The notes below the pieces were generated by a model that saw only the letters and a list, made by a program, of their open reading frames with translations, ran no database searches and was not told the DNA's origin. From positions 7,512,974 to 7,576,973 of the forward strand of contig NC_135259.1 in the NCBI RefSeq assembly GCF_964204865.1: DNA of 64,000 nucleotides, in the 5' to 3' direction. This DNA is from Styela clava (lineage: Eukaryota; Chordata; Ascidiacea; Stolidobranchia; Styelidae). The position numbers and the translations under genes were made by a program. Shown one piece after another: positions 11,694 through 59,910 of the stretch; the stretch's first letter is position 1; the number at the start of each line of letters is the position of its first letter.

Positions 11694-13001
11694 CTACGAT
11701 CTAGGAATAAACATTCATAGGTGCAGAAAATGTTCACCAATAAAATATACTAATTAATATTATTATAGAATAAACGGTTATTACAGAATATTTAGCCGCA
11801 TAGCCTGTGTTGATAGCAATATTACCAATGTAGCAACTCAAATGTAGAAACTCTTTCGGCATACAGCCTTACCAATGCTGTGGCGACAGAACTATGATTT
11901 TCTTGCTACAACTCTGTTTAGAATCTAAAACTACAAGTTTTAAAGTAGTTCGAAAATTGAAAGACTCAATTAAATTGAATACATCTATATCTACAAGAAA
12001 AAAATGATATTAAGAAAATTCATATTTTGCCTCAGTTAATCAAGCCTTAACCCAGTATTAAAACTATACGGGTGTTTCCTTAGTATCTAATTAAATTTCA
12101 ATTTACTCACATAGTTTTTCTGCAAATACCAGGCTTCTGAAAATACCACGGATCATACAATGGCATTATCTTCCCATCTTCCGTTGTGATGGTCTCAGGT
12201 TTTTCCTTGTGGCACTTCATGTGGCTATCGCAAGCACCTTGTAAGTTCCATAATCCACCACAAAGTTCACCTTCTTGTTTGGCACAAACGTCGCAACATC
12301 TGATAAAGTTTAAGTGAAAGATCAGTTTCTAAATAACTATTAAAATGAAACTTTACATGTTATTTCTAATAAATATTTTCCACAAACTAGTTTTACTAAA
12401 TTCTATCCTTATAGCTCTTTCCAAACTTTTAAGCTCGCGACCCCTTCCAATATATTAAAATTTTCCGCGACCCCTGTTGAGTCAGCATTTTTATGCAAGA
12501 GCGCCACTTTTTGGCTTTTCCGATCAAAGTCGGCATTAGCAGATGCACCGATTCTTTGATCCTATGTATTTTCTCGAAATCGTGAGATTTATGTTCTGAC
12601 TAGTTTCAATAATTGTGTTCCCAATCAAGTCTGAAAAAGTACAATAGATGTGAAATTGGTTTACTCTTTGCGGCCCCTAAAATTCGCACGCAGCCCTGTG
12701 GTGTCGCGACCCCCAGTTAGGGAAGCCTTGATAAGTATGATAAGGAATTCTATTGTATTTTGTGAAAAGATTATTTCAAGACAAATTTGCGTTTGAATAA
12801 CAAATTTAGTTGAACACATCTTCAAATAAAATGAATGATTATAAAAGACACATATGCAATTAGCAACCTGCAGTTATCTTTTATGATCGATCCCATACAT
12901 TCGGTTAGCTTCTTGCACTTTTTCTGTTTGCAACGTCCACAGGATGAAGCGTTACATGCGTGCATTATGCCAGCACAGATGAGTAATATCTTGATGAGCA
13001 T
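11694..13001 (-). CDS. secreted single IGFBP-domain (SIBD-like) protein, gene E
   Basis: Three exons on the minus strand, 13001-12868, 12299-12111 and 11700-11694, join in phase 2/2 to give 109 aa. A signal peptide ([18 protein letters not shown]) is followed by [26 protein letters not shown] and CDSHMKC, with a final GICRKT. The spacing, including CxCCxxCxxxxGxxCGG, matches the N-terminal IB domain of insulin-like growth factor binding proteins, here as a stand-alone secreted domain. The last exon supplies only Ile-Ser and a TAG stop, exactly as in genes A and B. Exon 2 is 189 nt, identical in length to gene A. A minus-strand AATAAA lies at 11592-11587. Related single-domain proteins are known in arthropods (SIBD-1) with proposed immune roles. 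The ligand here is unknown. Confidence 0.78.
12412..12730. mobile_element. degenerate hAT-like MITE in intron 1 of gene E
   Basis: The left end tagctctttccaaactttt followed by gctcgcgacccc, and the right end gtcgcgacccccagttaggg, form diverged inverted termini of the familiar hAT type rich in gcgacccc. No intact 8-bp target duplication is visible. It lies in the intron between exons 1 and 2 of the minus-strand IGFBP-like gene. Confidence 0.5.
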
Positions 13002-16700: not shown

Positions 16701-17384
16701 CTCAAATTTTGAACAGTATCCTAACAAGAAAAATTTCGGTGCTCCAGAAGTATGTGTACCAAAATGGAGATAACTGATTTTGTTCGCCTACTTTACATCA
16801 AGTTGGGTAGAAGGACGGCAACCTATGGACATATTCACTTGGCTAACACAGTCAGTACCTAAACTCGTAATACTATAGAACTAAAATGAGGAAATCCAAA
16901 AAAAATATGGCCTAACCCTAACCTGGTACACATACTACTGAAGTAACAAAATTTCAATACCAAAACTGTGTCGCTAAATATTGCATGTTCGAAGATTAAA
17001 ATTGTCAATTTCACTTTTTATTTGTAGCCTATGTTACAAGGTTGTCCGAGTTTTTAAATCTATTTAGAAGTGCTCTTTCGCCAAGATGCATCATTATACT
17101 TGTTCAGTTTTCAAGTTGTTTTCCATTTTTGTCAATTTTCTTTTGTGGGGTTTCGTCTGCATGTTCGTGTTCTAAAGCACAATGATACGTCGAATAATGA
17201 ACATTTAGGTAAAGTAAATATATTTATTATCATCATTTTACAATACATCAAACTGTAATAAATGAAGCTAGGGTTAAACATTGGTATGAAGTAATTTGGG
17301 AAATAGCAAGAATAAATTGCCATGTTTAACAATGAAGCGATACTCAAATATATGCTCCAGAAGATCTAACGCAGCACCGGTGGC
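13735..17384. other. gene-free region with scattered repeats
   Basis: I see no supportable gene here. A 100-codon minus-strand open frame at 16087-16389 contains a hydrophobic, cysteine-rich segment but no family motif or splice context. A hAT-like tip (agtggttgtcaaccttt) lies near 15700 without a partner. A copy of a dispersed repeat lies at 16739-16935 and is listed separately. A minus-strand AATAAA at 17228-17223 may serve the GPCR gene that ends at 17385. Confidence 0.4.
16739..16935 (-). repeat. dispersed repeat R, copy 1 (inverted)
   Basis: This segment is the reverse-strand homologue of the copies at 31882-32046 and 57925-58082. The shared core reads gtgttagccaagtgaatat on the minus strand, followed by related ccgtcctt, aacttgatgt and tctggagc blocks. 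It is non-coding and of unknown class. Confidence 0.65.
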
Positions 17385-20300
17385 CTATTCGTCTTTCCCT
17401 AAAGTCTCCCCAGAAAATAAAAATATTTCGAAACATAGTTTATAACTGTGAAACCGGTAATTTCAAAAATCATTTACGATTCCTTACTTCGGGTTATTAC
17501 AAATTTTGCATACTTACTTGCATGAACCCTTTTTCTGAACCAAGCCAAAATATATTTGATAGGTGTGGGAAGAGCGTAATACAACATAGGATTTATCATA
17601 CTGTTGATTGGTATGATCATCAGCCCAACAGGAAGATAAGCGTCGTTTGGTATATCTATGCCTTCATGGAAAAATAAATGATTAAAACATTATTCATAAT
17701 GTTCTTGCGGATAAATAATTTGTAATATATATTACAATTGTCATTGCAATCATCAAAGTAAATTTAAGGCTATGCCTCGCTTTGAAAACTTTATACATAA
17801 CTTAATTTATTTTTCTATTCATACGTATAACCATAATTTTTATATAAATGGGTAATGCTATTAAGCTATATTTCCTCACAGTACATGGCCACAATTGAGT
17901 TTTCTCGACATATAATTACCAGCAACTTGTAGAAATCCCATGATACAAATTGGCATCCAACACAACAAATCTGTTATGATGATCACGGTAACTTTTTTCT
18001 GCATGGATTTTGCCCTTTTCTTTAACTGTTGGTTGGTCAATGCTTTATTTTCTCGAGTTGAATTCCTGTCGGTAAAATAAAAATTTTACACTTTTTTTAT
18101 CCGATGAACACACTTTGGAAACCCCGTAACCAATTTGTTGTTCTTACTTATATATCACAAAATATCCGACTGAAATCACAAAAAAGGCCAAGAAATTGAT
18201 GATGAGAAGGATTAGTGAATAACCCCATGCCATATCCTTTATTGGATTCGGAAATAGTGTCGGGAGACAAACGGTATGAGTTGAGTAATATCCAAACTTT
18301 CGGTCAATATTGAATTTAGGATTTAGTCTTTTGAGCATAGTTTCCAATGCTGACCATGAGTCACTTAATCTGTTAAAAAAACGAAAAGTTAAACATAATA
18401 TTTCTAAATGCCTATATCAGTTAAAAAATTGTCTTACTTCAATGTATCATTATTTTCAGTTTGTATTGTTGAAATCCATTGATTTATTCCCCTTATTTCG
18501 TTTTTGTTGATTATTGAAAAAAATGGATTTTGACTCAACCTGAAATTGTAAATTATTTGTCATTGTCAGAAAATATTGGCACAACATCAGTAGATCGCCT
18601 TCTGTAACCCTTGGTCGACATTGATTTGGATCTCAGTAAGAACAATTTTGTAGAATACCGACTAAGTAGCCTAAGTTTGAAAAACCCTTTTTTACATGGT
18701 AATTTACAAAAAAGTTAAGATTCTTAATGAATGCTAATTCTTGTCAAGTCTATTATAGAATAACAGTAACAACGATAAAAATTCAAACAAAGAGCTTATC
18801 ATGGTGGTCAAAAACTGTACACTTTCATTAGAAACTGATGTTCCGACGGAAAAAAAAAATCTACATTTAAGAAATGCCGACCCATAAGGAAATGACAAAC
18901 AAATAATTCTATTAATAGACTAATAGAGTAACAAATAGATATTACATATATGACAGAGAACATTTCATATTTGTTCTTACAATATTTAACAGAAAATTTT
19001 GTCATACCATACATTGTCCACAAAGTAGTCTTGAGTAACTGGCAACAACGGAATCACGGCAATTGCAATAGCAAGAGTCCATGACAATACGATAATATGA
19101 CGAATTGTTCTGAGTCTAACTTCAACAAATGGTCTGAAATATATATTCATATAAACGCACAGCAATAATATAATCAATTTTACTCTGTCATTCACCTCAG
19201 AAGAGTATACACTCTAAATCCTGTAATGATCGTCAGAGTAAAAACTGAAGACTCTGTTCCAATCATAAGCAAAGCTCCAATAGCAGAACAGGTAATTCCA
19301 CTTCTCCATTCTGCATCTTCTTTGCAGTACTCACCCTGCATTGTTACACTCTTTACGCATATGGTCATTGTGTATACCTGAGTAAAATCATATGTTTTAA
19401 AAATGTTCAAATATTTAACTAAAATATTCAAGTTGATCTACCCCAACGAGAAAATCAGACGCTGACAGATTCCAAATCAAGATTTTGTTGATCATAGCAT
19501 TCTTTTTATCTTTCTTCATCTTGAATAACTTGATTATAGAGAAAATAATCACGAACGCATTTCCTGCCAATGTGACGGTACCTGACAAAAAAGTATTTAA
19601 TAACTGGCAAAGTTATGTTAAACGATAGATTGATATATATATAGGGTTCCATTATCTTTGAACCTATGTACATTTGCACTCAGGTCAATTGCATCTAAAT
19701 ATTTTTGCATCCACGGACATTTGCACCCATGAACAATTATATCAATACATTTGCACCCGCAGATTTTTGCACCCACATACAGATTGCACCTATGAACATT
19801 TGCTCTCATGGACATTCGCACCCATGAATATTTGCACTCATGAACATTTCCACCCACGTGCATTTGCACCCACGTACATTTTCGCCCAAAGACATTTGCA
19901 CCCATGAACTTTCGCACCCACGGACATTTGAACAAATGTACATTTGCACCCACGGACATATGCACCCGGTACATTTGCACCCGCGTACATTTTCACCCAG
20001 GTACTTTTACACACGCGTACATTTGCACAAGCGTACATTTGCACCCAGGTACTTTTACACACGCTTACATTTGCACCCACGTACTTTTTTACCCGCGTAC
20101 ATTTACATCCGCTTACAATTGCACCCATGAACATTTGCACCCACGGATATTCGTGACTGGAAAAGAGGTTATATTGCCATTTGCGCCGAAATAGTGACAT
20201 CCTAATGTTATAAATAGTAATGAAGACGAACTCACTGCAAACCCGATTAATTTTGATTTTTCTCTTATCTATTTTCTTTCTTGAATCACCTATCTCTTGT

Positions 20301-23300
20301 TTTGTACAATTGATTTAACACTGACTTGATTAATTTATGTACAACCAGTTTCCTTCCCCATCGTCTGCTAACCACCGCACATTCGACTACGTTTGCGTTA
20401 TTTCATCGAAAAAAAAAATGACCGATGAAACTAGGAAAGGATTGTAACTCGCAAGGACAGTGAAAACGTAGCGACCCTCATCAAGGATAAGAACTACTTA
20501 GAACTGGTAATCCGTCTTCATTTCGAATATATATTTATAGTTGGTAATTAAAGTTTGTCTGAAACATGGTTATTCGCGATCATGACTATTGGTGCGTTTA
20601 ACATGTTTGAGGGTGCAAATGTATGCGGATGCAAATGTACTGACGCCTATATATAGATGCATTCTTGAGGAAGTTTATAAATTATTTCAGACAAAACATT
20701 GGGCAAGTTGTATTCACACCTATTTATTATCTTATTCTAGACATTCATGAAAATATTTATTTATCTTCCATATTTTACAGGCCTTAACTTAACACTATGT
20801 ATGACAAAGAATGTCGACGTACAGTTCAGAATCGATTCTAATTGAAGAGTACGGTCGACAGATAATAAATTGATGCAAAACGTCGCAGGAATTTGCAATG
20901 TTCTCAGCTTATATTTGAAAATAGCTATTTTGCAAATGCAAATTCACAAATCGGACATGATTGATAACTTACTTTGGCTGATTGCCCCAGATAGTTCGAA
21001 CTGAAATACTTTTGAACTGATTCATGTATGTGCGGAACCACGCTTCGTTCGATAGACATTACAAAGATTATTACGTTTTAAAAATAATTCTGCGTTTTAA
21101 ATAATTCTAGGCTTTACAATATACATACATTAAGTAATTAAGAAATAACCTGTATGGTTTGGTTCGTACAATTAGGTTTTATATATATAATATACACTAA
21201 CTTGTCACCAATACAATGGCAAGCACTAACGTATTCTTGATCATTGAATTTGTGTCTGAAAATGCACTGACAATGCATTCAGGAAGACATTCGTCACTAC
21301 CACTTTTACAATCTTGACTCCCGTCACATATCTGTAAAAATTTATATATTGGTAAAGCAATACTATTTTAGTTGTCACGTCTCTATCAGTATGTGAAGAT
21401 CAAAACAACTTGGGCATAACGCCAAATGTATATAACTCTATCGGGATCAAGCGATCCGACACCTATATTCCTTACTAAAATACCGTTAACGATTTCGATT
21501 TCAAATGAATTACGAATCAACGAATGTCAGGACATTTAGGATATTACAGAATAATCGTTTCTGCATCCAACGTTTGCCCTTTTACTAAGTTTGGGTTTAT
21601 TGTCTGCTTGGTCAAATCCCATACTGCAAGAAATTGTGTCGTGTCAAAATATTTTTTCATTTACTACCAATTCGAGGAACTCTTCCTCCCTAGCTATTTA
21701 TTGTTTTAATGGCCTGATACATTTTATCTGCTGGAATCGCGAACTGGAAAATAAATATATATAATAGTGCGCTGATGGATGGTTAGTAACTTTGTCAATT
21801 ACAAGTTATTAACCATCCATCAGCGCACTAATATATATATTGCTTTTATAGTTGAGAGAATATTCAAAAGGAATAATATTGTTGCTACTCCCACAGTTTG
21901 GGAACACATGTTTTCTCTAAAATTCCTGCAAATTCCTGTTTTGAAAATATTTCATTTAGATTTCAGAGCTAATCTGAGGTATGTAAAAAGCATACCTCAG
22001 TTTGTAATATAATATTTAGGAGTCAAAATGCAATCAAACTTCATTTTTAGAGATGAATTTAACATCTCCTGTGTCATTGCAGTAAAAGTGAGTTGTTTCA
22101 GTGCAGTTCATTTCATCGCTAGAATCTTCACAGTCCTGTAATAGCCAACATATCAAAATAAAAGCATTTCGTTTTTCCAATAAATATTTTTGATAACATT
22201 ATTCGGAATTGTAAGTACCACATGTTATAGGTGTAAGTTGTGCAATCTATTACAGTTAATGTCAGAAGCTCGGAATATGGAAGCGATCCAACTCTATAAC
22301 CTCGTGTTTTTTCGTGCGAATCAAGAATTAAAATCCCGTTTGAGCAATCACTAACGAAGGCACTCACTACTGATTGGTTCGCGCATAAAAAACACTGATG
22401 TACCCGATTGGTACTGATCGTTCTATTCGCGGGAGTGTAGGTTACATCACAATGGGTCCAAGTTTCACTACTCCGTGTACTTGATACTTGGTAAATTTAT
22501 TGCTCAGAATGAGAGATCAAACAATAGATTTTGATGTTAAGCAATTCGTATCTCTGTTTTCAACCCAAACCTAATTGTGAATTTGAAATGGTCGACAACG
22601 AGACGTCTCAGAGCGATGCTAACTATAGATTTAAGCTACGCGACGGACAAAACGATTTGGTGGATAAGGACTCAGATATCGACGTAATTTGTTAGCAAAA
22701 AAATTTTCCATCCCAAGGTTGAAAGTGTAATTATCGTCTTTGAGACTTGATGATGTTTTTAAAGTAGCCGATAAAACAAAACAAAATATTTGCAATTATC
22801 GTATTATTAACACAAACATAAATTAGTCTCACATACTTTATGAAGGTTGCAGACTTTGTGGTCAGGTACGTTTATTGGGTTATTCCCTTCGCAATTAAAT
22901 CTTTGAAAATAAAAAAAATAAAATGTGAAAACTTTTTTTTATCAAAGAGAGTTTCGTGGACGGAAGAATGACAAGTTGAAATCAATCTACTTGTTCTGAT
23001 CTCATTAATCAGTGTGAGAAGTATACATCTCACAAAACTTTTATTATTATTAATACTATTTTTATTCATTAATAGTCGTTTTATTATTATTTTTGATATG
23101 ATTTTAGGTCTTCCAATTCGAAACTCCCGTATCTATATTCAATTTGTGGTATATTATAGTTTGCTAAGTACATCAGACCATCTCAGGTGGAAAACTAGGC
23201 TTAATTACTAGGTGCTAGGTTCACTTCACACGCTCGATATTTAATTTTATTTTAAACTTAATTTGATGTTACTAATAAGCAGAACTTGTGAAATGAAAAA

Positions 23301-26300
23301 CAAAACGTTGCCGCGAGTACATTGATGAGATTGGTCCTCGCATGAAACGCCATATGATGCGGAAATAGTTATTAATTCTTCAATACATATAAGTTTGTGA
23401 CATACGCCAGAAAGCAATTTAGAAATACTTTACCTTCGTGGACATTTGATTTCTTCTTCTCCTCCTTCGCAATCAGCTATTCCGTCACATATCTTCCAGG
23501 CTGGAATGCTCGTTTTGCTTGAACAGTGATAATCCCCTCGAATTAAAAAGTGTTTGCAAAATTCGGGTATCATCTGGCAACCCCAACATTCCTCGTGGTA
23601 AGCCTGACTGCATTCTATGATTCCATCGCACTTTGTTGCAATTGGACCTGAAAGGTTTTAATTATAGAATTTGTGTCAGTATGTACAAACAACAAAAATG
23701 TTGAGAAATATAAATGACCATCAGAGATAATGAAAGTTTGACAGGTTTGTTTGCAAAGAAAGTTCACAAACATTCGAGAATTTTTCAATGGTAAATTACA
23801 CAAATATTTTCATTGTTTCCTGGTCAAATGACAAAAGGCGTAATTTTCTCTATCTAGAATATCTATCATTATCTACTGTTTTTATTATCACATCAACAAT
23901 TTTCTTTCCGATAAATTTGCTATATTTCTCAAATTAAGAATTGGGCTATTTTAATGATGAACTGAATTTTTTAGCAGCAAGATATAGTACAGATGTTAAC
24001 AAAAATATGTATTTTTTTGGAATCGAACAGACCGATTTAGAAGCTAAATCCCATAAACAACAAAAAATAAAGAACTAAAGTAGAGACTATTGATAGACTT
24101 GAAAATATGCTCGTGAACTGAGCCTCACGGTTGATATAAAACAAATATAAATTTTTAATGATGAGCTTATTCAGTGAATATTTTGAGGCAACACGTGATT
24201 GACAAATTGTAATTATTGTACATCTTATTGAATTAAACAAAAACTATCTGATACATTTTTCGCTCCCAATTGGTTTGAAATATTAATTGAGACTTAAGTT
24301 GTATATTGTAATTGTTGTTTCATTCCATATTAATTACTATAATCTTCAATGATTATATATATTCTATAAAATTGTAAAACATACGGTTGGGGTTTAGTGA
24401 TTCACAAGGGAAGTTACATTTGTCTGCTGTCCGATCCCACGAGTCATCTGTGTAATGATAACATATGGCAATTAAAATGTCCTATATTCACAACCTCTAA
24501 GGTCATGAAATTAGCCTTAGTGCTGTAAGACCGAGATTTGAATTATTGTAAAATATTTGAAAGAGTGAGAAATCCAAATCTATTGCAAAATATCTGATAA
24601 ACTATGATAGACCAAATAATAGAAAACAAATATAAATATTTTCGACAGTATTTCTGAAGTAAATTTTGCATAAAAATATTAATAGATATGATAAAATTCG
24701 CGTTACCCGGACAACTTGTTTCTGGACAAAATTTTTCGTCAATTGCTCCCATGCAGTCTTGTCTGAAATATAATTATGGTAAATTTTATTCAAATTGAAT
24801 ATACAAATAGATATTTTAGAAGGGTAAAAGGGGAATGTTAGCGTACAGCCTGTTAAAACATTCCATAAATTATGGTCGTTTTAGGTGTAGATTGAGCTCA
24901 AAATCAATTTCAAATAAAAAGTTAGATTTGTATTGAAGCAACTTACCGAGGTCTTCATATTCTAACTCCTATTCCATACTTTCAAAATATGCTGTGACCT
25001 ACTTACATTTTATCGCATACTTTTGTACTATTGTTTGCCTCCGTGGCATTACATGAGAAGTACGGTGTCCCATCTTGTTGCCCTTTATTCAAAAGCAAAA
25101 TTCTTAGTCTTTTTCTAGGATAAATTGTTTCCAAAAATCAAGTAATCGCAGAAAGAAATCTCACCCCAAACAACGTGTTTGCAGATGTCTATGACACCTT
25201 TTCGTTTGCATAAACATTCGTCTGATAAATCTGGACAGTCTATGATACCGTCACACAGTTTTCCGTAAGGAATTATTTCTTTAGATGTGAAACAGCGAAA
25301 GCACTCTTCTTCATGAAAGACTGCGAGTTATTATATTATTTTGTTAGTTGCTTAATTTTGAACAATCCTTTTAATTGGTGATAATTAAATTAAATTAAAT
25401 TAATTAATTAAATTAAATTAATTAAATTCAACAAATTTAGAAAATGAGGTTAGCCGTTTAAATGATATTTTCGTTAGAAACTTTTACACTCTTCTGAATC
25501 AGTTAAACAGTTAAACATTTTTGATATTCCTTTGATATTTTAGCAAAATACTTCAAGTTTCAGAAACAGTAAGAGACTGTGCCACTTTTTATCCAATTCT
25601 CCAATTCAACTCCAATTGTAATACAATAAGAATTAATATAGGTAAAATCGACATAATATTAACGAAAATCGTTTTTTTAACAATACCGTTGAGATATGTG
25701 ACAAGATAATATTTATATTTTATTCTTTGTATCTTTTTTTATATTTTAAAAATGAAAGTAACTAAATGAAATACCAGTAAATCCATTTGAGAAAACATTC
25801 CGTTCATTTTTTGTTCTACAAGACTTCACTTATTAAATTATATGTGTATATCTGTTCTGATTGTTTGTATTTTATTTTACTTTTATTTACAAATGAACTT
25901 ACTTCTATTTAGTATGGGTTCATTTCCATCGCAAAAGCATTCATCAACTCCTGTAATAACGAAAATAAAGGGGAAATAGAAACATATACTGAAATATTGC
26001 ATCATTACAAACTTTTTAAAACGACAAAAAACCAAAAAAACTCTTGATATTTTTGAATTTTGGAAACGCTTCCTAGTTTTGCCAAAGAATGCCACCGAGT
26101 TGACTACAAGTCATATAGTTTTGGAAATAATCTAAAACATCAGTTTGTGAGAAATTGAGATAATATCAAAATTATACTGCCAACAATATTTGTTGGGCGA
26201 AAGATAAATACCCAACATAGAGGTTGTTGCTACTTTTGATCTAATAAAGTAAGTTGCTAATCATCTTATATATTACAGCTTTTACTGCTATTTTCTAAGA

Positions 26301-29300
26301 ACTAAGTCAAGTTTAAGAAATGCTTGTATAATAGTCAAACATATTCCAGGATCTAAATGCTATCATCCAATAAACATGCTCGAATTGAAAATAATACATG
26401 TTAAATGATTTAATCATTCTGAATAAAACCAATGTATGGTAATCGTAAATAAACGAAAAACTCTAATAAACAAAATTCTGATACTAAAGCATGAGTTTAT
26501 ACAACAACAGTTTCTCAGTTTATTCAAAAACAAATTTAAATAATGAATTACCTCCCGAACAATGTGAATACGAATCACATATAAATTCCGCCGGTAGTGG
26601 ACACTTTCGATTCATTCGTTGAGCGTCCATACCAGAACATAGCATATCTCCCTCTTGTCGTTTTCGATCAAAGTTAGGCTCGGAAGGATATGGGCTATTT
26701 TCCCTAAAACATGGAAGCATTGATCAAATATGTGGACTCTAGTGTAGTACGTTGTTTCCGGTACCCCGCTTGGTAAAACAATTTGGAGACGGTTATTCGT
26801 GGTGGAATAAAAACTGTTCCACTTCAATATAAATCAAACAGTTGAATTAGAGGTGAAATATCGTATCCCAGAGATCTAGGAAGTAATTTGAAATTGAATG
26901 AAAGTTATAGAAGAAGTGTAAATTTTAGGTCGATAGGTTCATTAGTTGAGATAATACGATTTATAAAAACAACCGTAACAGAATCAACCAACCCCAACAG
27001 CAACAAGAATTTACCCAAGTGAACAATTTGTCAACTTTGAGTCGAACAAAATGATTGTAAACAATTGGATGCAATGAGAGTAGAATATGGAAGCATCATA
27101 TTACAATCGTATTTATTAGACAGTTGACCAAGATGCAAAAGTATCGACACAATGTTTTGAATATACAACAATAAATATAAGTTTATGAGTAAAACGGTTG
27201 TTCATGGAATACTAAGTGGCAAACCCCGATTGGGATCTCATGCTTTCTTACAAATGTGAGCAAGATAACATAATTGTAGACTATTGTGAGGCATCAAATT
27301 TCTGCTCTTAATTATTTTACACACGCATTGCTATACTTGCGTAATATGATGAGTCTAAGACCCACATGATTGGTTGTACAAAATTATACGATATTTCCAT
27401 AATTAGTAATTTACTCACGTACAAAGACCCCCTTGAGTGCAAAAGTTAATCTTTTGGCAATAAATAAATGGATATTGGCAAAGTGTTTCATCGCTTCGAC
27501 AAAATGGATCTGAAACACAAATCAGATAACGGACTTATTTTAGCGAAGGCAGTAATAACTTCACAGAGTGGCCGAGAACAATATTCACAAAAAAGCCATA
27601 CTGCATATTGCATCATCAATCATTATATCACACTCTTTTTAATAATTTTTGCTCTTCATTTAAATTCAATTCATCATTTTTTTTTCGTACTCGAAATTTT
27701 ATGATTGGTTCTTTGTTTTATCCTACTGGGAGTGGAGATTAAAAATTATAATGTATATATATGAAAAGCATAAGTGGTATATTTACCACATCTGTTTTAA
27801 ATTATTGCTGAATTAATCTTTCTATTTTTTGCTGTATAAATAATGGCAAAGGAAAGTAAAAAAAATGCACCTGAGAGTTGTTGAGTTATATATTTTTGTA
27901 AATTAAAGTTATATGAATAATGCTTGGAACAAATAGTTTAACAAAAACTTGAAAAATCCGATGATATCACCAAAGTAGCACCGAATAATGTGATATCTAA
28001 CATTGGCAAAAAAACTTTAATGATAAATGATTATTTATTAAAAAATTTATGAATTAATACTAGAGTCAGTCTGCAAAAAAATTTGTTTTTAAATTGGACT
28101 GCTTGGGTTTCACAGACTCGTCTTTGTCACGGGAAAACCGACAAATTTTTTTACTAGATACTAGGTAGATGTTTGTTGTTTTCACCTGCTTTGCAAAGGG
28201 AGGAGGCTTTATGAGCTTGACTTTTGGGAAGATAGCAGAATCTATGTGTGACGGATCGGCATAAATGTCCAGTTTTGTTGCTGTCCAGGAACCGCCGTAA
28301 GTCTTTGTCGCTGTTGTCCCTAGACACAAGACATTTAATAGCGCTTGGTATTAATGTGAATTATGAACTCATATAATGAGAAGACGTATCAACAGCTCTA
28401 TGAATATAAACAAACATTTTTATATAAAGTTATGGAAATTGTATTTTCAACTGACATGCAATGGCGGGTGATGTGGATATAGGTATCGCAATACGATTCA
28501 CGTGGTACACACCCTGATCCGTCTGTACATTTGAATTCGTCGTTGTAACATTCAGCATCTACAAATAAATGTGTAAAAGTTGAATTTATATCAACGAAAA
28601 AGTTATTATTATTGTTTAATGGTGTTTATGACTGGCGATGTTTTATGCACCTGGAATATGATATGCTGCTTCTAACGCTTCTACCCGTTGCGAGGACGTA
28701 TTTATGACAAAATATATAATTCCGGGGTTTGTTATAAAATGTTGGGGGCTTTTTTCTTCAAAATACCATATTTGCAAATACAGAATAACATTTAATGTTC
28801 ATTCTCGAGTACAAAACAGGTTATATTTTGTTAGGAGTGGCGCCAAATCTGCCTAAAATTAAGGATGAAACACTTTATATTTTTTGAATAAACAAATTAC
28901 TTCTACCTTTTAAACAAACTGCTGATTGCAAGTGTTTGAGATTTTCAGGTAACATACAAACAAACCCGTCTCTGCGACAAGGAATTCCAGATTGGTCAAG
29001 ACTCAAGTTGCGTCGTATCTCATCAATGCCATCTCTATGGAAAAAGAATAGCGTTGAATATTATTGTGATACAAAGTAGATCAATGGATCGTTTTGCTAA
29101 ATTCTTGTTGTTGTTTTTGTTGTTAGTACTCTTCTTGGTATTTCTCAATCCTCATATAGTTTGGAGACCTGATTAATTTTATTTTTTCGCTGTGACTCAA
29201 AGAGTGTAAGATCTTTTTTATGACATTTTTCGGCGTAAAATAACTTTAGTGTCCATGTGTCATTGCAGTAAGGTGAAGGGGAGAAGCTTGCATACCGGTA

Positions 29301-30629
29301 TTCGGCCCATTATTACCGGTATTCAAATTGACCAATTGTTAACGTTTAAAATAATAAAATAGATATGAACAATCTTGTTATGGGGTTACTATGTTCATAC
29401 TAATGATTCATGATGAACTAATTGCAGTGACATTTGAAGAATTTCTTGCTATGTTTAACGAACATTTGTTACGATTGAAATGTACTTGTACAGTGATGTA
29501 GAAAAAATGAAACCACCAATATATTATACAAACTAACTTACTCGCAGTCAATTTCTCCATCGCAAAAAGAAGAAATAGGAAGCTTGAGGGTTCCGCAATC
29601 AAATTCTAAATTATAAATATGAAAATAAAAGCAGGGTTTTTACGCTCAAAATAAGCCCCAAAAGTTGGTATACAATTTTTCACTGAGAATAGATGCAAGT
29701 AATATACGTACTGAAACAAGAGTTACCAACACGAATATTGTGCATTTTATTAATCAAATTGAACTTTTTTTGAATAGGGTATTGAAAATATATAAAATAA
29801 AATGCTATCAACCGTCAGAGATTTTATGTTTTGCATCCTTCTTCTGTTGGAAACCGTTTAAGGCGGTAGGTTAAGAAGACAATATCAAGCCTATCAAATT
29901 AACGTTTCAGTCATAAGTGGCATTGTTATGTTATTGTCATTTATATTCTAACCGTTGATATTTCGAGCCGAAATAAGAAATTCAAATAGAATTTGAAGAA
30001 TAAAAAGCAGTGTCAGCATGTAAGATTCATCTGTACAAAACTCGTTTGCTAAACTTCATTTAAAGTTACCAATTCACTGAAACGGCCAAAATAATATATT
30101 TCCAACACATCGTAATAAACATCGTAATAAATCTAATTGATTAAATTACATCAATGATAATATATGGAGTAATATATGTACAAAATGACATTAAATCAAT
30201 TTATGTTTTGTTTCAAATTCTTTTTCTACATTTATTTCGGATTTATAATTCCAAAACAACGAGTTCCGTATGATGACATTTCATCATTAAAATGCACGAA
30301 GTTGCAGTGCTGAGCTCGGCCAATCTAACTGATTAGGGAAGACTTTTTTTTTCAAAAAATACAGGTTTCCCAAACTTTTTTGATTCTTAAGTGCCTAATC
30401 ATATTCGAAAAAATAGAAGCACGATATTATGAGTGACAATAGAACATGCAAGCAAATATTTGACAATTAATATTCTATAAAATAGGTTGAATTTAGACTG
30501 AAAGTGATGCAGAATTTCAGCAATATTATATTAACACTGACCTGCGTTTATTTGAATCATGCATAGAAGTATAGCAAATGGGATTGTCCATTGTTCAGCT
30601 CCGTATCCCTTAATGTTTGAATCTTTCAT
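17385..30629 (-). CDS. LDLa-module GPCR, GRL101/LGR-type 7TM, without LRRs
   Basis: Twenty-four exons join in frame to 889 aa. They are 30629-30542, 29605-29542, 29034-28907, 28558-28456, 28319-28186, 27509-27419, 26703-26552, 25950-25903, 25320-25165, 25082-25007, 24762-24707, 24447-24385, 23647-23434, 22900-22837, 22135-22040, 21331-21202, 21008-20973, 19581-19442, 19377-19196, 19133-18991, 18349-18148, 18065-17920, 17661-17518 and 17398-17385. The first encodes a signal or hydrophobic leader (WTIPFAILLCMIQINA). About a dozen degenerate LDLa modules follow, such as CDGEIDCEDGIDE, CDGIIDCPDLSDEC and CDGSQDCKSGSDEC. Next is a rhodopsin-family 7TM domain of LGR/relaxin-receptor type: LAGNAFVIIFSI (TM1), NLSASDFLVG (TM2), TESSVFTLTIITGFR (TM3), TVIIITDLLCWMPI (TM6), NPMLYY (TM7). 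No leucine-rich repeats were found. GFR replaces the usual E/DRx. It probably signals through a G protein at the plasma membrane; the ligand is unknown. The last two 3' junctions are least certain. Confidence 0.82.
19668..20160. repeat. 18-bp minisatellite in GPCR intron
   Basis: About 27 imperfect units of roughly acatttgcacccacggac run head to tail. Because 18 is a multiple of three, long open frames appear on both strands (for example 19618-19980 and 19840-20130) with repetitive peptides. These frames are artefacts of the repeat and not genes. It lies in the intron between the exon at 20973-21008 and the TM1/TM2 exon at 19442-19581. Confidence 0.9.
21765..21830. repeat. 28-bp-arm inverted repeat (hairpin) in GPCR intron
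   Basis: The left arm, tagtgcgctgatggatggtt plus agtaactt, is mirrored by aagttatt plus aaccatccatcagcgcacta, with a 10-nt spacer. Only one mismatch was seen, and AT-rich tracts extend the pairing outward. It lies in the intron between the exons at 22040-22135 and 21202-21331. It could be a foldback element remnant or a structured RNA; no function is shown. Confidence 0.8.
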
Positions 30630-31881
30630 TTTATAGAAAGTATTGAACAGAATTATGTATTTCTAATAAATGTCGGTTTTATCTGATATTTGCAAATACT
30701 AATATATTTTTATTTAAAAAATACTATGTATATATATATATATAATTATTAATCTTTGTTTGTACATTGATCTTTTATCACTCTATAATTTTATTGTTTA
30801 TTGCGTATTTCAATAACCTAATAATTCGAATCTAGTGATTACTGATTGTTTTTGTAAACTGATATATTCAAAATTAAATTCAAATAATTTTAACTTTTAA
30901 AAGTAGACGTTTGCTTCTGTGACATTTTTCTTCACTATTAGTTAAGCGAAGGCTAAAATCCTGTAGTGTAAATGAAGCTAATAAACGTAACCTTTGAACA
31001 TTTTTTTTATTTTTTTATCAAACTTATCCGAATTTTATTGTGTATTGTAAGTAATACGCTAATAAACAAACTGCTCTGCACGAACAAATATACGCGAGGT
31101 GCTTTTCTGGCAACACATGCAAATTTACTATATATATATATATATATACTAGAGTTTGATATTCACAGGAATAAAAATCTCGTTATTATCAATTTTCTAT
31201 TTGTGTAACAAACAACCATTCTAAATACATGTTCCTCCTTCACCTCTACTCATCTTATTCTTTTCAAGATTGTTACGATGATGATAAATTCTCAACTAGA
31301 CTATGCATGTTGCGGGTTCCTTCCATTCATATCTGTATCTAGTGGTAGAAATTCAAATCGAAAGTGGATATAACAATGCACGCAATTCCCGTGTTAATAA
31401 GACAGTTGAAATGACGGAAATAATGATACAAAATTGAGCAAAATATGTTATACGTATCTGTTAAGTATCTAATAATTTGACATATTTTCGCTATAGTGTT
31501 TTTGAGACATTATTTCACGACGAGATTTTGGCAAAAGTATAATGCCATTACTAAGTAAACATAACAAACTGGTACGTTCACTTTCTTATAAAGTTTATAA
31601 GAAAGTGAATAAAACAAAAATTTAGTGCATGCACTCTCGTTACACACAACAAAACAAATATGTATAACCCTAACCTGGTACAAACGCTGCGGAAGTACCG
31701 CAAAATAATTATATCTTTGATAGACGTTGCCGTTTCGGCAAAAAATCGGAACTTTGAAGAAACGTTTCAAAACATTAGACCGGTTCGGAAAACAACTTGT
31801 TCTTGGTTTTATTGATTGCATGACGTTTATTTTAAGTTAAAGTGTTTCTCGTATATTTGAGTAGAATATTTATATAATTTG
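30630..31881. other. upstream region of the GPCR gene
   Basis: No gene is supported. The stretch contains AT dinucleotide runs near 30727-30743 and 31127-31148 and a 33-nt palindrome at 31577-31609. The tract cctaacctggtaca near 31670 also occurs near 16918. The promoter of the minus-strand GPCR gene should lie near its low-coordinate end. Confidence 0.4.
31577..31609. repeat. perfect palindrome with 16-bp arms
   Basis: The arm ttcactttcttataaa is followed by a single g and then the exact reverse complement tttataagaaagtgaa. There is no coding context. It could be a cruciform-forming site, a foldback remnant or a palindromic junction. Confidence 0.85.
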
Positions 31882-32046
31882 GTACTCCCGTAGTGTGTTT
31901 ACCAGAAGGTTAGGGATAGGTCAAATTTTATTCCGATTTTCCCTATTTTAGTTTATCACGAATTCGGGGACTGTCAGTGTTAGCAAAGTGAATATACTCC
32001 TACCCATAGGTTTCAGTTCCTTTACCTAACGTGATGTAGCGTCGCA
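31882..32046 (+). repeat. dispersed repeat R, copy 2
   Basis: This is a plus-strand copy of the repeat also seen at 16739-16935 and 57925-58082. The core gtgttagcaaagtgaatat is followed by a caggtttcagttccttt-like block. It ends close to the hAT element that starts at 32058, so its 3' part may have been cut off by that insertion. Confidence 0.6.
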
Positions 32047-32057
32047 TTTGTCTAGTG

Positions 32058-33041
32058 CAAGTATCACCAGCCTTTTCGAAGCCGAGGGCTACTTTCTGGT
32101 TACAGATTGAGCCGCGGGCTACCAATTCAATGTACACTTCTAAAAAATCGCGGCTGTGTGGCCATCGTTAGTGTGCTAAGCGTTAGGTTCACAGGTTAGA
32201 ATTCTATGTGAGGATAGTTATGTGCGAGAGGATTGCTGGACCCCTTACCGCAGTTGGGATGGCTTCCTTCGCCATTAAGTTCATGCTTACGAAAACAAAT
32301 ACTTAGCTAATCCCATACCCGACATGAAATGGTAACCGGACGAGAGGCCCTGGTTCGCTATATGATTAAGCCGTCTTATGGTCTATCTTCTCCCCCGGGA
32401 TAAATATGTAAATCCCATCCTATTCTGAGTTTATGTCAAAAATGTTGATTCACAAAGATAGGTTGAACGAAACAATGGTCTCGTAAAATAGTATTGCTGT
32501 ATGATTTGAATCGCGAGCTGTTCTGCCCGTACTGCGCTGACCAGTGGATAGTGAGTGGGTAGATTTCGTGACAAGACGTGAAATACATTTTCGCTTTGCC
32601 GTCGCTACAATCGCCCCAAAAAATGAGACACGTGCAGGCAGTTATCATGGTGGTAAAAATATATCCACCCCCATTCATTATGAAAATGGTGGGTTTTTCA
32701 TCGTTTTTCTGCCATTTTTCTTTGGAATCAATAATTATATTATTGCTGCTCCACAAAACAACGGACAAGAAAAAGCGCGGGTTCGTGGTAAGTTATATCA
32801 GTGTGATGTCATAATTGGAAGAGTGATAATTGACCCGTCACATTACTGAAGTCAAATAAAAATCAGGTTGATGGCTACAATATTTAATATAGTGCCATAC
32901 AAGAATAACAGGACAATATTTAACTGATGTAGCTTACTCATAAGCCCCGTTATTAAGCTTAGTTTGGAACAGACCTCCGGGAGACTCATATGGTCTTTAA
33001 GGGCGACTTGGTGCCCGCGGGCTACGCGTTGGTGACCCCTG
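32058..33041. mobile_element. non-autonomous hAT element with perfect 8-bp TSD
   Basis: The 984-bp element starts caagtatcaccagcc and ends with ggtgacccctg, whose reverse complement begins caggggtcacc. Subterminal gagggctac and gcgggctac tracts mirror each other. The flanking 8-mers at 32050-32057 and 33042-33049 are identical (gtctagtg), the length typical of hAT transposition. No transposase frame is present. Open frames at 32436-32849 on both strands have no known domain. A SINE-like segment lies inside at about 32165-32410. Confidence 0.85.
32165..32410 (+). repeat. SINE-like or dispersed repeat, copy inside hAT
   Basis: This segment shares ordered blocks with 38700-38935: tccca, ccgacatgaaatggtaaccg (ccgacatgatatggtgaccg there), gacgagag, and atgattaagc then cttatgg. 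The 5' part has a weakly tRNA-like look, but I could not confirm A and B boxes. Assignment to the SINE class is tentative. Confidence 0.45.
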
Positions 33042-33049
33042 GTCTAGTG

Positions 33050-36000
33050 AGTAGCCTAATTCAGTCATAAAAAATGTGTAAAAATGTATCACCCATACCC
33101 GGCAAACTATCCCAGTCCACACGTGAAAAATAAACGTAGTTTTGGTTTGCAGGTAATCTTTAATCTTTTTATAGTGGGTGACCACCAATGTTGTCACAAA
33201 GAGGGTATAAAAATAAAGCATTTTGATCTGCACATGACGTTGCGGTTTTTAATAAAAAAATGTTAGAAATTAACAAATTGAAGTGAGTGATTGTTTAAAT
33301 GTGTAATTTGGCGTAAACGTAGAAAGTACTATGACCTATAAAATGAGTGTGAAGCTAGTTTAGCAACCACGAATTTCTGAGATCAATCAAGCCCTTTGCA
33401 ACGATAAAATAAAACGGCATTCGCACGTGAAACTGCCGACATCTCTCAAGCCTCTTGAATTCTTCTAGTTCCTTCATTCGTTTTGGTTTCTTCTAGCTTT
33501 GCTCAAATTTCATCCACGACACCTGAAATAAAAATGAAGACATATTATTCATGATTTGAAGTCTCAGAATATTTTAAATGGAGATGATATGCATATTTTT
33601 ATAAGTTTCTAAAAGAAGATTCTATAATTACAACATTATAATCAAGACAATATTAACAGTCGTTTCATTGTATACCGGTACCGTCCGCAGCTGACCATCA
33701 GATATCAACTTACGCGAAAAAGAAACCCCAACAAGGAAAGCTATTTCTTAATTTTGATAACGAAATGGCACACAAATAAGTGAATCCCATGGAAGTCACA
33801 AAAACTATTGAAATAAATAAAAACAATAGCCTTCTAACGAAAAATTTAATCTTTAAACACTGTAAATTGCAAATAGTCAAGTACTTAAAGTAGAAAATAT
33901 TTATTTCGAGTCGACCGTACTCTCCCTCAATTGGAACTGTATGTAGACATTTATCATAAACAGTGTTGGTATGCCTGTAAAATATTGAAAATGAATAAAT
34001 AATTCCAGTAGCAAAGTAGGCCTACGTACGGCTATAGCATGGTCCAATACATTCGATAGCACTGCGGACTTAAATTGCTGGGTTTGCTTACAGTCTTACA
34101 TAGTATCGCCCTGAATTTTATTTAACTATTTGTAATAATTTCCAACATGACTCCTGCAATGAGGTTACTCCCTATTGCGATGAAGCGTCACTTATTTTGT
34201 TTATGTTCTTTATCGTTATTTCAAAATTTAGAAGCATTACGGTTTGGCCCGTTCAGCGAAAATTGGCAGCAGATAAGACAACACTTTTTTAATTGGATGA
34301 AATACATAATTCTGTGGCTACGATTCTTTGACATAAACGTGGGTCTGGCTCTAACATATTTTGCCATATAAAATTATGAGCGCGATTTGGTGCTTAAAAT
34401 GACGAAAGTTGGAACGAAGCAATACAGTTTTTTCCCCAATATTGGGCGGTAAAATAAAAATAAAAACATTTTTTATTGCTAATAATTGATCAGGTCTTAT
34501 TTGCCGGAAAAATACGAATCGTGTCTATATAAAATTTTAAGGGTATAATTCATAGAAAATTCCATTTGACATGGTCACGACAAAGCTGAGCTTATACTCA
34601 ATATAAATAAAATATAAACTTGTCGCAGATTTACCGGAAAAATAATAAATGTTATTTATTAAAGAAATGCAATTAGAAAAGACAAATCAACTTTAAATTG
34701 CATTCAGCAAAATAAATAACATTGATTTCCTTGGTCTATAATTGCAATATATTGTACCTCATTATGTGAATGTAAATTGAAATTTCAACAGATTTTGACC
34801 ACTTATTATGGGTTAGACTTGCTATACTTTCATCTGGTTCAGTGATGCATAACCGTATAATTGACAATGTCGCATTTCTTTTGATTAAATAATGGACTAC
34901 CAGTGTTTTAGAAAGCTGAAAATAAATTTATATGAGATGATGAAACGTAGGTAAATTTTATCTTATTTTGATTAGAATGATATATTCTTGTGCGAAATAT
35001 GTCATTATCAGTGGAACGGTGAGGCTTTGCTCATACTATACAATGTTAGTTCATTTTCAAGCAGGTTCCCATAAAATTACATATATTTTTTTTATTTAAA
35101 ACGATGTGTTAGTGTATTATATATTCTCTCATTTTGTATTCTTCAAGTCTCTCTTCTCTTCTCGTTTATTTTCTCCTAAAAATATAACTCAATTTTCAAA
35201 TTTAAAAAAATACTTTACGAGCAAATTTCGTCATATAATTTAATAAAATCCAAATTCTATTTTTGTGAAAGTTTTCCCAAAATACACAAAACTTCAGAGA
35301 AATTAGACAAGTAAAATTTATTCGCCAAGATTCAAATATCAGAGATTACTACAGAAATTGCTTCTCAGAGATTTTTTTTTTCTAAAAATATTTAATAAAA
35401 CTCTACAGTTACAGGTATGTGTAATACCGTTGGTAATTCTTGCCTTGTTTACAATAACTTCTCCGTTCAACCCAGACGCCAGAGACATAACATCAGCTTA
35501 ATCACGGTTCTATGTGAAGTATATAATTTTCTTCTCTTCATCTTATTCGGTATCTTTATATGATCCGAACCTAAGCTGAAGAAGGCTGCAAGGAAACTAA
35601 AGAGGGAAACGTTGTGCCGACCTAACCCAAGCTAAGCTTAAAGGAGGCTTGATTGTGCTCTTACGGCCTTAGCTTAGGTAAGATCATTATGAGGGCGCGA
35701 CTGAGATGTGCTTCAGTTGGAGAATGCATATTCATTTCACTGACTTGTAACTTATATGTACCATGGTTGAAGATTGCCTTTGTCGCTAGAAGGTTATTAC
35801 TTTTTATTTATTTCAAAAATGTCTGTGGTCCAATTGGGATTCGTTTTTCACACTAAAGTTTTGCATGCTTACGTCATTATGTAAAAATTGCGCACCGTGT
35901 GGTGGCTCTGTGGTTGCACCTCAGTGATCTGGCGGCCAGTCGAGGTCGGAAAGACTATACCGGTAGCGTACTGTAAAAGATTTGATATCGGTGTTACTTC

Positions 36001-36053
36001 ATTTTGGCTTTCGTGTTCATATATTTGACCATAGCTTTTTGTTTGTATTGCAG
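33050..36053. other. gene-free stretch before lectin exon
   Basis: No coding exon can be supported. I looked for an upstream partner of the lectin exon at 36054, which should carry a GWY..G.YYK-type segment ending in phase 2, and did not find one. A tRNA-like or SINE-like stretch (gtggctctgtggttgcacct) lies near 35902-35960. Confidence 0.4.
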
Positions 36054-36312
36054 AGAATTACTCTCAATAATAAAGCCAGGTAAATATGATACCTGGGTTG
36101 GTCTAGATGACTTTGGTCACGATGGAATATTTATTAGGGCTGATGATTGTATACAATTAACCAAAGAAAATAGTGAATGGAACACAGGAGAACGCAATGG
36201 CTATGGACTGGATGAAGATTGCGTTCATTTTTACGTCGCTGACAATTCGAAGAAGTTGAATAATATGAAATGTAGTATACCAATGAAATACCTTTGCGAG
36301 AAGAGAATTTGA
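36054..36312 (+). CDS. C-type lectin-like 3' terminal exon (partial gene)
   Basis: After an acceptor (tttgtattgcag) the exon opens in phase 2 and encodes ELLSIIKPGKYDTWVGLDDF, then GIFIRADDC, DEDCVHFY and a final YLCEKRI before TGA. This is the second half of a C-type lectin-like domain: WVGL, a region corresponding to W-x-D-G, the D/NCVH strand, and the closing C...YLCE cysteine. Asp-Glu-Asp before CVH resembles calcium-coordinating positions, but an EPN or QPD triplet is not visible, so sugar binding is uncertain. The 5' exon with the first half of the domain was not found upstream. It has the same exon phase and layout as the opposed lectin at 37612-38590. A hAT element begins 54 nt past the stop. 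Confidence 0.72.
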
Positions 36313-37611: not shown

Positions 37612-38590
37612 TCAAGCCCCTGCTTCGCATATATACACAATCTCGCAACAATGTACACAATCTTTATCACCTCCCGAATTACTTGGCTGTTCTGCATTGT
37701 TATTTTCAATTGAAACTTTGCCATCAGCCCGGATGAATTTACCTTCATGCTTGCTTAAACCAACCCAAGTGTGCTCGTTGCCAGCTGTGATCAATGACAT
37801 TAATTCGCTGCAACAAAAATAACAACAAATTTACATAGTTCAATTGATTATTTCGGCTATTTCATCTTTCATACGCATATACGGATCCACTGGCGCAGAG
37901 ATATAAAGCAAGCTGAAGTAGATATTTTTGGCGTGATCCAAACTAATAGTAGCATAATAATCTAACATCCTACTTTTGCCACTTGGTACAACACCAGAAT
38001 CAACGTAAATGTAAGTAATGAGGTGTTTGATTTTATTCACAAGATAGCTGTTAGTTAGGGAATTGTAACTTCATTGACATAGATCATGCAACGCAAAGAG
38101 ATTAGAATTACTCTCACCTGATTGAACTATATTAAATTTGTTTCGCGGGCAGCACAGCATTGAATATTGGCACCTCACCGCGGGTCGCACAATTTGTTTT
38201 TGTGGGCCACATTTTGCCTGTGGGACACCTATGATTTAGTCGAAAGTTTTGGCCACTAGGGCACGGCACTCACCATAAATCGTATCTCCCATAAATCTAA
38301 CGAAAAAAAATGAATTTGAAAATAACCTTTGGCTCCAGAAAATACCGATTCACTTGCGCAAAGACATAGAGCAGGGAAACCTAAATAGACTCTCGTAACC
38401 CCAATTAATAATTAGAAAATATTCAACTTTGAATACGTCGATCACCTGAGAAAGGTAGGGTTTCTAAAGCCCGCAGATGCCAGATCCGCTCCTTGATTCT
38501 GGCAGTTAGATTTTGCTGTTGCGTAATTGACTCGATCATTGAATAATTTGTAGTAAAAGCCGTTGCTTGATTGGTACCAGCCTTTGAATT
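37612..38590 (-). CDS. C-type lectin-like gene, internally deleted
   Basis: Two exons, 38590-38446 and 37807-37612, join in phase 2. The first encodes FKGWYQSSNGFYYKLF, NYATAKSNCQNQGADL and NPTFL, the start of a C-type lectin domain (WY..G.YYK, A...C...GA.LAS). The second gives SELMSLITAGNEHTWVGL, FIRADGK, GGDKDCVH and YICEAGA, then stop. The long strand that normally lies between CVH and YICE, holding the W.D..C part, is missing: CVH is followed directly by CCEIVYICE, so about 15-20 residues have been lost. No signal-peptide exon was identified upstream (phase 1 entry), so the gene is 5' incomplete. A working secreted lectin is possible but doubtful. Confidence 0.68.
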
Positions 38591-42775: not shown

Positions 42776-42979
42776 ATTATTTGGTTCATCAGATAAATAT
42801 GATGATAGTGAATCCTTAGTTAGAACACAGTTGAAAGCCTTTCAAGACATGTCCATTTATCCACCAAAGTGAACAAGAATATAAAAGCAGCAAGGTAATG
42901 GTGTATATTTCCCAAAAAGAAAATCTGAACTTGATAACTTTTGCTTTTCTGTTGAAACATATACAATGCATATGCAATT

Positions 42980-43876: not shown

Positions 43877-43965
43877 GAAGTCAATTACAACAAAATAGTA
43901 TATAAATTATTTCAATAGTAACCTTAATCAAACCTTAATCAAATAGCGAAATTAATAGCAGATTA

Positions 43966-59366: not shown

Positions 59367-59910
59367 TTACGATGTTATGCAGGTTCCAGGGTAGGATGGA
59401 TCAAGCATCTCATCAATGACTTCTCCGTCGGGCAGTATAAAGTAAGACGCATAATTGCAGACCAGGACTTTATCGGGATCACAATTACCGAAATCATTAT
59501 ATTCTCCTCCACACATCTCGCCTTTTTGGCTTGTACATCGTTGGCAGCACCTATGAAATGTTTGAACAAAACAATTGCGTGATTATAAATTTTGTGAAAT
59601 AGTGTGTGTCGTGAGATCATGCTTTACACTAACTTAGTGTAAAATACTGTAGAAGTGCAGCTCAAATGTTCTTTACAAATCAAGAGCCGAAAGTTCGTTG
59701 TTATGCGAGTCGTTATTCCACGCAGAATCTCTACAAAAATACCATGCAGCAATTCTTTCGTACTCATAGTACTTACCCACAAGTATCTAGTTCTGTGGAC
59801 CCTTCACAAGGAGGAGCTTCGCATTCCTCGAGGTTGCAAGGTCCGCAAGAATACCCATTTGTCACGTAAAGGCAGGCACAGAAAATAACTAATGTTGAAA
59901 TTGAATTCAT
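59367..59910 (-). CDS. secreted single IGFBP-domain (SIBD-like) protein, gene D
   Basis: Exons 59910-59777 and 59550-59367 join in phase 2 to give 105 aa. The signal peptide MNSISTLVIFCACLYVTNG precedes CGPCNLEEC, LDTCGCCQRCTSQKGEMCGG, NCDPDKVLVC and PGTCITS. The frame reaches TAA inside a gtaagt string, so the coding sequence either ends there or is spliced at that donor into a third exon, as the other members are. The ancestral Ser codon and stop (TCG TAA) are reproduced exactly at this point, which favours termination in exon 2. It is opposed to genes A-C. A hAT-like MITE begins 38 bp upstream of the ATG. A minus-strand AATAAA lies at 59192-59187. Confidence 0.78.

Follow-up and report, generated by a model that had tools for sequence, protein, structure and literature searches.

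Twelve LDLa-like modules and an LGR-type seven-transmembrane core without leucine-rich repeats in a predicted receptor gene of Styela clava

We analysed a stretch of 64,000 nucleotides, referred to here as the window, from the ascidian Styela clava (C13:7512974-7576973, NC_135259.1, in a genome of 376.6 Mb and 379 contigs). Its minus strand carries a gene of 24 exons for a predicted class A G protein-coupled receptor (GPCR) of the LDLRR-GPCR type, in which a likely signal peptide is followed by 12 LDLa-like modules, what remains of the LGR hinge and a seven-transmembrane (7TM) domain of the type-C-LGR kind, and in which leucine-rich repeats (LRRs) are absent. The architecture is present in the DNA, related copies are found elsewhere in the genome, and the reading frame is conserved. 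On balance we regard this assignment, together with the mechanism proposed below, as probably correct.

The receptor gene was rebuilt exon by exon and runs from 30629 to 17385, giving 2739 nucleotides of coding sequence (divisible by three) and a protein of 912 amino acids. All 23 introns are GT-AG with consistent phases, which bears out the 24 exons in consistent phase of the initial annotation; its protein length of 889 amino acids has to be replaced by 912, or by 922 in 23 exons if exon 23 continues to the stop that ends at 17474. The donor score in the model was on average 4.83 of 6, compared to 3.38 for background GT in the gene, and the acceptor tracts had 9.9 pyrimidines of 15, compared to 7.3 for background AG. 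The G+C content was 39.2% in the exons and 30.5% in the introns. In the spliced protein Pfam detected 7tm_1 (9.4e-19) and Ldl_recept_a (2.3e-15, with seven stretches at E <= 1). With a hydropathy cut-off of 1.6 only transmembrane helices (TM) 1, 3, 4, 5 and 6 were flagged; TM2 and TM7 were placed by homology, and the signal peptide, which lies below the cut-off, was judged by eye. The exons, with their extracellular (ECL) and intracellular (ICL) loops, are as follows.

30542..30629, minus strand: exon 1, ATG and likely signal peptide (MKDSNIKGYGAEQWTIPFAILLCMIQINA), hydrophobic by eye; donor GTCAGT; 97.7% identity in paralogue L048
29542..29605, minus strand: exon 2, first part of LDLa module 1; no cysteine 1 (C1), no C3
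28907..29034, minus strand: exon 3, end of module 1 and module 2; similar to exon 5
28456..28558, minus strand: exon 4, end of module 2 and most of module 3 (C3 kept)
28186..28319, minus strand: exon 5, end of module 3 and module 4
27419..27509, minus strand: exon 6, modules 4-5
26552..26703, minus strand: exon 7, end of module 5 and module 6
25903..25950, minus strand: exon 8, end of module 6
25165..25320, minus strand: exon 9, module 7 (complete calcium ligands) and start of module 8
25007..25082, minus strand: exon 10, middle of module 8
24707..24762, minus strand: exon 11, end of module 8
24385..24447, minus strand: exon 12, linker and start of module 9
23434..23647, minus strand: exon 13, modules 9-10; the most diverged exon in comparison to paralogue L032
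22837..22900, minus strand: exon 14, first half of module 11 (four-cysteine type)
22040..22135, minus strand: exon 15, end of module 11 and start of module 12; weak donor GTTTGA; AG/GT and frame kept in L032
21202..21331, minus strand: exon 16, end of module 12, hinge-like SAFSDTNSMI, first half of TM1
19442..19581, minus strand: exon 17, second half of TM1 and start of TM2
19196..19377, minus strand: exon 18, end of TM2, ECL1, TM3 with F3.49-R3.50
19008..19133, minus strand: exon 19, ICL2, TM4, start of ECL2
18438..18539, minus strand: exon 20, ECL2 insert
18148..18369, minus strand: exon 21, remaining ECL2 insert, ECL2 cysteine, TM5
17920..18065, minus strand: exon 22, ICL3, TM6 (TDLLCWMP)
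17518..17661, minus strand: exon 23, TM7 (NPMLY) and C-terminal tail; read-through stop at 17474
17385..17398, minus strand: exon 24, one of two possible ends, RKDE and stop; dispensable if exon 23 reads through

No LRR was found by Pfam in the spliced receptor protein. Module 12 ends within exon 16 (21331-21202), which goes on through a short hinge to the middle of TM1, in agreement with the initial annotation, and LRRs therefore cannot be spliced between module 12 and TM1 without replacing this exon. The LRR-like strings counted in intron 16 and across the gene were within the range of 60 Markov controls (long pattern in the gene: 4, compared to a mean of 1.55 and a maximum of 6). Pfam scans of unspliced minus-strand frames, which covered intron 16, 21202-30629 and 16800-19580 in three frames and 30630-35300 in two of three, also gave no LRR, and these scans were weak, as they missed the 7TM exons too. 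Based on the string and Pfam scans, hidden LRR exons in the gene were rejected.

Stronger evidence for the lack of LRRs comes from elsewhere in the genome, where we read 12 open reading frames (ORFs) that run from LDLa-like (or LRR) sequence into the 7TM domain, 11 of them LDLa-only and one, L042, of the LRR type. The LDLa-only frames (L029-L031 and L034-L041) lie on C1, C14, C19, C4, C9 and C8, with a group of several near 11.0 Mb of C19, and hold in one open frame the region that the window gene divides over many exons. At E <= 0.01 Pfam found both Ldl_recept_a and 7tm_1 in nine of the 11 (L029, L030, L034, L035, L036, L038, L039, L040 and L041), with the LDLa matches of L038, L040 and L041 under Pfam's curated cut-off; L031 and L037 matched 7tm_1 only, and their LDLa-like ends are readable by eye. 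At the same threshold none of the 11 frames contained an LRR, and the control L042 gave LRR_8 (7.5e-19) and no LDLa. In L034 the residues ahead of TM1 (PLSSPEEMI) could be aligned with the RXFP1 and TSHR hinges, and SAFSDTNSMI of the window receptor occupies the same alignment columns as PLSSPEEMI. The end of the LGR hinge thus seems to be retained while the LRRs are gone.

The 12 LDLa-like modules of the ectodomain were parsed by eye and checked against the protein, in agreement with the dozen or so degenerate modules first noted. The acidic core motif of LDLa occurred 10 times, whereas 2000 shuffles gave 0.35 on average and never more than 4. Read from the sequence, the D/D/D/E set of calcium ligands is complete in only four of the 12 modules (1, 7, 8 and 12), so that many modules indeed lack calcium ligands; all but one residue is present in modules 6, 10 and 11, and at least two are lost or changed in modules 2-5 and 9. 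C3 of the LDLa fold, read in the same way, is lost in nine modules and kept in modules 3, 5 and 6. Modules 1, 11 and 12 also lack C1, with C2, C4, C5 and C6 remaining. The disulfides of the LDLa fold pair C1-C3, C2-C5 and C4-C6, and the cysteine losses would drop one disulfide and keep both that hold the calcium lobe. Four-cysteine modules resembling module 11 are also present in L029 and L030, and this form is therefore not the decay of one copy. In several one-frame relatives the membrane-adjacent module lacks C4, which is kept in the window gene. Exons 3 and 5 are similar to each other (z 7.3, 300 shuffles). We also considered exons 3-8 as three copies of a two-exon unit, and rejected this, as only the comparison of exon 3 with exon 5 was convincing; those involving exons 7-8 and that of exon 4 with exon 6 were weak.

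The best solved relative of the 7TM domain was RXFP1 (1.1e-24), followed by LHCGR (1.1e-19), in line with the initial reading of an LGR-type 7TM without LRRs. The class A features D2.50, R3.50, the TM3 and ECL2 cysteines, P6.50, TDxxCWxP and NPxxY are present. In the HMMER alignments F-R-V of the window receptor stands opposite E-K-Y of RXFP1 and E-R-W of LHCGR, so that the arginine at 3.50 is present and the acid at 3.49 is the sole loss. The motif had first been read as GFR in place of E/DRx; the loss of the acid holds, whereas the register was off by one residue, the correct reading being F3.49-R3.50 with the arginine kept. In the window receptor and the 11 LDLa-only ORFs, residue 3.49 was F, Y, I, L or V (12/12) and R3.50 was kept (12/12). 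Between the TM4 proline and the ECL2 cysteine lay 81-94 residues in all 12 (81 in the window receptor), compared to 17 in L042. RXFP1 has about 16, a count in which six residues absent from the printed alignment were entered as X. Thus the ECL2 of every LDLa-only sequence (12/12) is 64-77 residues longer than that of the LRR-type control. The insert is encoded by exon 20 and the start of exon 21, and exon 20 was intact, with AG/GT and an open frame, in five of the six paralogues read.

A search of the genome with the 7TM domain gave 149 matches at about 60 places, which were grouped by eye and are a lower bound, with some partial matches and at least one LRR-type receptor. L043 (C13:7604581-7606800), outside the window and 74 kb from the gene, matches its 7TM exons at 2048 of 2052 aligned bases and either arose by recent duplication or reflects the assembly. 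Further copies are clustered at C13:15.53-15.88 Mb. In paralogue L032+L048 all of exons 1-23 could be placed (23/23), with no stops and with AG/GT retained at all inner borders. A tree was built from 15 sequences, with long branches, an arbitrary root and no GRL101 or Ciona sequences; in it the 12 LDLa-only sequences stood apart from L042, RXFP1 and LHCGR at 93/95. Without the ECL2 insert the support was 97/97, and 97/98 when LHCGR was left out as well. Twenty stretches picked from 7tm_1 matches as possible paralogues were rejected, as among 28 loci only L001 and L006, both from those matches, and L025 matched, weakly. A tight cluster of many separate 7tm_1 exon matches was seen at C2:9676001-9746000 (L009-L015). 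None of these matched the window receptor at E <= 0.05, and the cluster is probably another multi-exon GPCR expansion.

The two halves of the gene have diverged differently. In comparison to L032+L048, nonsynonymous changes amounted to 57.8 in 1304 sites of the ectodomain and 3 in 817 sites of the 7TM domain (p = 1.4e-9). The 7TM domain is under purifying selection: omega = 1 was rejected (twice the difference in log likelihood, lnL, was 17.6), and the ratio of nonsynonymous to synonymous divergence (dN/dS) was 0.32-0.69 in five pairs, the sixth pair having 0 nonsynonymous and 2 synonymous changes. Exon 13 differed from L032 at 25 of 214 sites, compared to 184 of 6000 in introns 1-13. This contrast had p = 4.4e-7, the lowest value among seven exons tested, with approximate site numbers. 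In seven copies of exon 13 the cysteines were constant (7/7) and the loops varied. In the 99.8%-identical duplicate at L043, exon 13 (L049) differed at 6 of 214 sites and the flanking introns at 3 of 396 (p = 0.053).

In RXFP1 and RXFP2 hormone binding falls to the LRRs, and the LDLa module is regarded as a tethered activator in contact with the exoloops, according to the available text of PMC4561518 and PMC4837482. With the LRRs gone, the simplest mechanism would be that the LDLa array catches the ligand and signals via the hinge remnant and the enlarged ECL2. We make five proposals, in falling order of confidence. First, the receptor would be made and reach the surface. Second, the LDLa array would be the part that catches the ligand, with the calcium-competent modules 1, 7, 8 and 10-12 folded and modules 2-5 altered. 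Third, the membrane-proximal modules, the hinge remnant and the enlarged ECL2 would carry out capture and activation in one step. Fourth, as class A receptors without an acid at 3.49 are expected to have a less stable inactive state, the same may apply here, with basal or easily triggered signalling. Fifth, ligands may differ between paralogues, which would explain the change in exon 13 with constant cysteines. The altered ligand capture suggested by the initial annotation may hold, as it fits the absent LRRs, the changed LDLa modules, the enlarged ECL2 and the diverging exon 13.

Several observations weigh against this reading. Synonymous changes were also fewer in the 7TM domain (2 in 227 sites, compared to 15.2 in 319 in the ectodomain; p = 0.011, against L032+L048), and gene conversion of the 3' part therefore probably adds to the contrast between the two halves. 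The dN/dS of the whole ectodomain was 0.93 against L032, which is near neutral. For exon 13 it exceeded 1 in 21 of 21 pairs of the seven copies, but these pairs are not independent and none was significant, and the codon model gave only 2.2 (twice the lnL difference to omega = 1), so that neutrality was not rejected; positive selection on exon 13 was not proved. A fold prediction for exon 13, the sole fold tried, was useless (pLDDT 38). Modules 2-5 are very degenerate and may not adopt the LDLa fold. The LRR-type L042 also lacks the acid at 3.49 (T-R), and this loss is therefore not special to LDLa-only receptors. In L047 exon 20 is broken (one stop, GG acceptor), and the absence of LRRs in the one-frame relatives applies within the open frames read.

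The proposed mechanism can be extended, tentatively and with considerable doubt, to the family. The LRR loss may have been paired with the gain of 64-77 residues in ECL2, ligand capture may have moved to an LDLa array read by a built-in loop, and the array may have diversified under selection into a chemosensory or immune-type repertoire on a hormone-receptor core. Many copies with the ECL2 insert, a non-acidic residue 3.49 (12/12) and a diverging LDLa exon on constant cysteines make the ligand question testable, and raise the question of how a receptor of the relaxin/LGR kind signals after loss of its hormone-binding LRRs.

Alternatively, the gene could encode a GRL101-type (type C2) receptor for an insulin/IGF-like peptide that lost its LRRs secondarily and kept the ancestral ligand class via the LDLa array. 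The twelve LDLa-like modules equal the number reported for Lymnaea GRL101, the available text of PMC8286064 proposes that basic IGF tails might contact the GRL101 LDLa modules, and the five IGFBP-like exons in the window (listed below) are suggestive only. However, RXFP-type receptors hold the hormone core by the LRRs that are absent here, and many copies with a diverging exon 13 are ill-suited to one conserved hormone. We consider this origin unlikely. Still less likely is a decaying or non-signalling copy, that is a decoy or a pseudogene on its way out. The degenerate modules 2-5, the near-neutral ectodomain, the weak donor of exon 15, the recent copies and the broken exon 20 of L047 would agree with decay, but the frame is open through 23-24 exons, the paralogue keeps the splice borders, the 7TM domain is under purifying selection with R3.50, D2.50, TDxxCWxP and NPxxY kept, and the exon 13 cysteines are constant in all seven copies. 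That the model is an artefact, joining an adjacent LDLa protein and GPCR or overlooking LRR exons, is very improbable: although it was built from DNA alone and the unspliced Pfam scans were insensitive, exon 16 joins the last part of module 12 to the first half of TM1, the LRR-like strings are at control level, and nine relatives have LDLa and 7TM in one open frame.

The receptor gene thus remains best read as an LDLRR-GPCR. It shares the window with the following features; scans for tRNA and Rfam families in the window found nothing.

8857-10338, plus strand: DDE_1 transposase ORF, with a PHD-finger open stretch after it
12110-12298, minus strand: IGFBP-like exon
19657..20145, plus strand: 16-base minisatellite of about 31 copies, inside intron 16
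35986-36309, plus strand: C-type lectin exon (Pfam Lectin_C 3.3e-7)
37615-37830, minus strand: lectin-resembling open stretch, by eye
39863-43906, minus strand: non-LTR-type retroelement, with a reverse transcriptase ORF (RVT_1 2.4e-35) preceded by an ORF that matches Baculo_FP_2nd
48335-48523, plus strand: IGFBP-like exon
52446-52622, plus strand: IGFBP-like exon
56799-56981, plus strand: IGFBP-like exon
59370-59549, minus strand: IGFBP-like exon

The five IGFBP-like exons, identified with Pfam and tblastn, are small and cysteine-rich and flank the receptor gene. The four that were scanned gave Pfam IGFBP values of 2.6e-5 to 0.026, all under the curated cut-off, and possible signal-peptide exons lie upstream of some of the five.

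The initial annotation had pointed to a receptor lineage with altered ligand capture; that such a lineage is newly seen could not be upheld: the available text of Kamesh et al. 2008 (PMC2396169) describes 14 Ciona LDLRR-GPCRs with 1-10 LDLa repeats, a 7TM domain like that of the INSL3/relaxin receptors and no LRR. The architecture was therefore rejected as a novelty. As described there, the Ciona receptors share with the window receptor the tandem N-terminal LDLa repeats placed directly on a relaxin-receptor-like 7TM domain, the lack of LRRs and the lineage-specific expansion. They differ in having 1-10 repeats, compared to 12 LDLa-like modules here, and in that the majority of their repeats are classical, whereas nine of the 12 modules here are without C3. 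For ECL2 and residue 3.49 the comparison with the Ciona receptors covered the published description and not their sequences, which also counts against our reading. In the available text of PMC2396169 the terms 'ECL2', 'DRY' and 'hinge' are absent and 'extracellular loop' occurs in the reference list only, and the Ciona LRR-less LDLa receptors are left there without a ligand. In the open-licence PMC literature we found no later report of such a ligand and, among the matches listed (titles and abstract openings), none of an enlarged ECL2 or a lost 3.49 acid in LDLa-type receptors; PMC2396169 was the one paper recognised there as dealing with Ciona receptors of the LDLa type. The architecture is thus known, and the ECL2 enlargement together with the lost acid may define a variant of it, subject to the Ciona sequences. 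According to the available part of PMC11863921, RXFP/LGR3-type receptors were lost in urochordates; this agrees with a tunicate lineage having LDLa-type receptors of its own and tests nothing here.

The window receptor has the features of class A GPCRs, with TM2 and TM7 below a simple hydropathy cut-off. With GRL101 and the type C2 LGRs of Lymnaea and other bilaterians it shares the many LDLa modules and the LGR-type 7TM domain, but Lymnaea GRL101 also has six LRRs (available text of PMC8286064), and the window receptor has none between the LDLa modules and TM1. With RXFP1 and RXFP2 (type C1 LGRs) it shares the 7TM sequence, the presence of LDLa and a hinge element before TM1, the latter shown for its relative L034. 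It differs from them in having many LDLa modules and no LRR domain, where type C1 receptors have LRRs and one or two LDLa modules (one in RXFP1/RXFP2). It also has F-R at 3.49-3.50, compared to E-K in RXFP1, and 81 residues between the TM4 proline and the ECL2 cysteine, compared to about 16. The LRR-type LGR of the same genome, L042 (C9:16118601-16120900), belongs to the same 7TM family and also has a non-acidic residue 3.49 (T), but it has LRRs, no LDLa in its open frame and a short ECL2.

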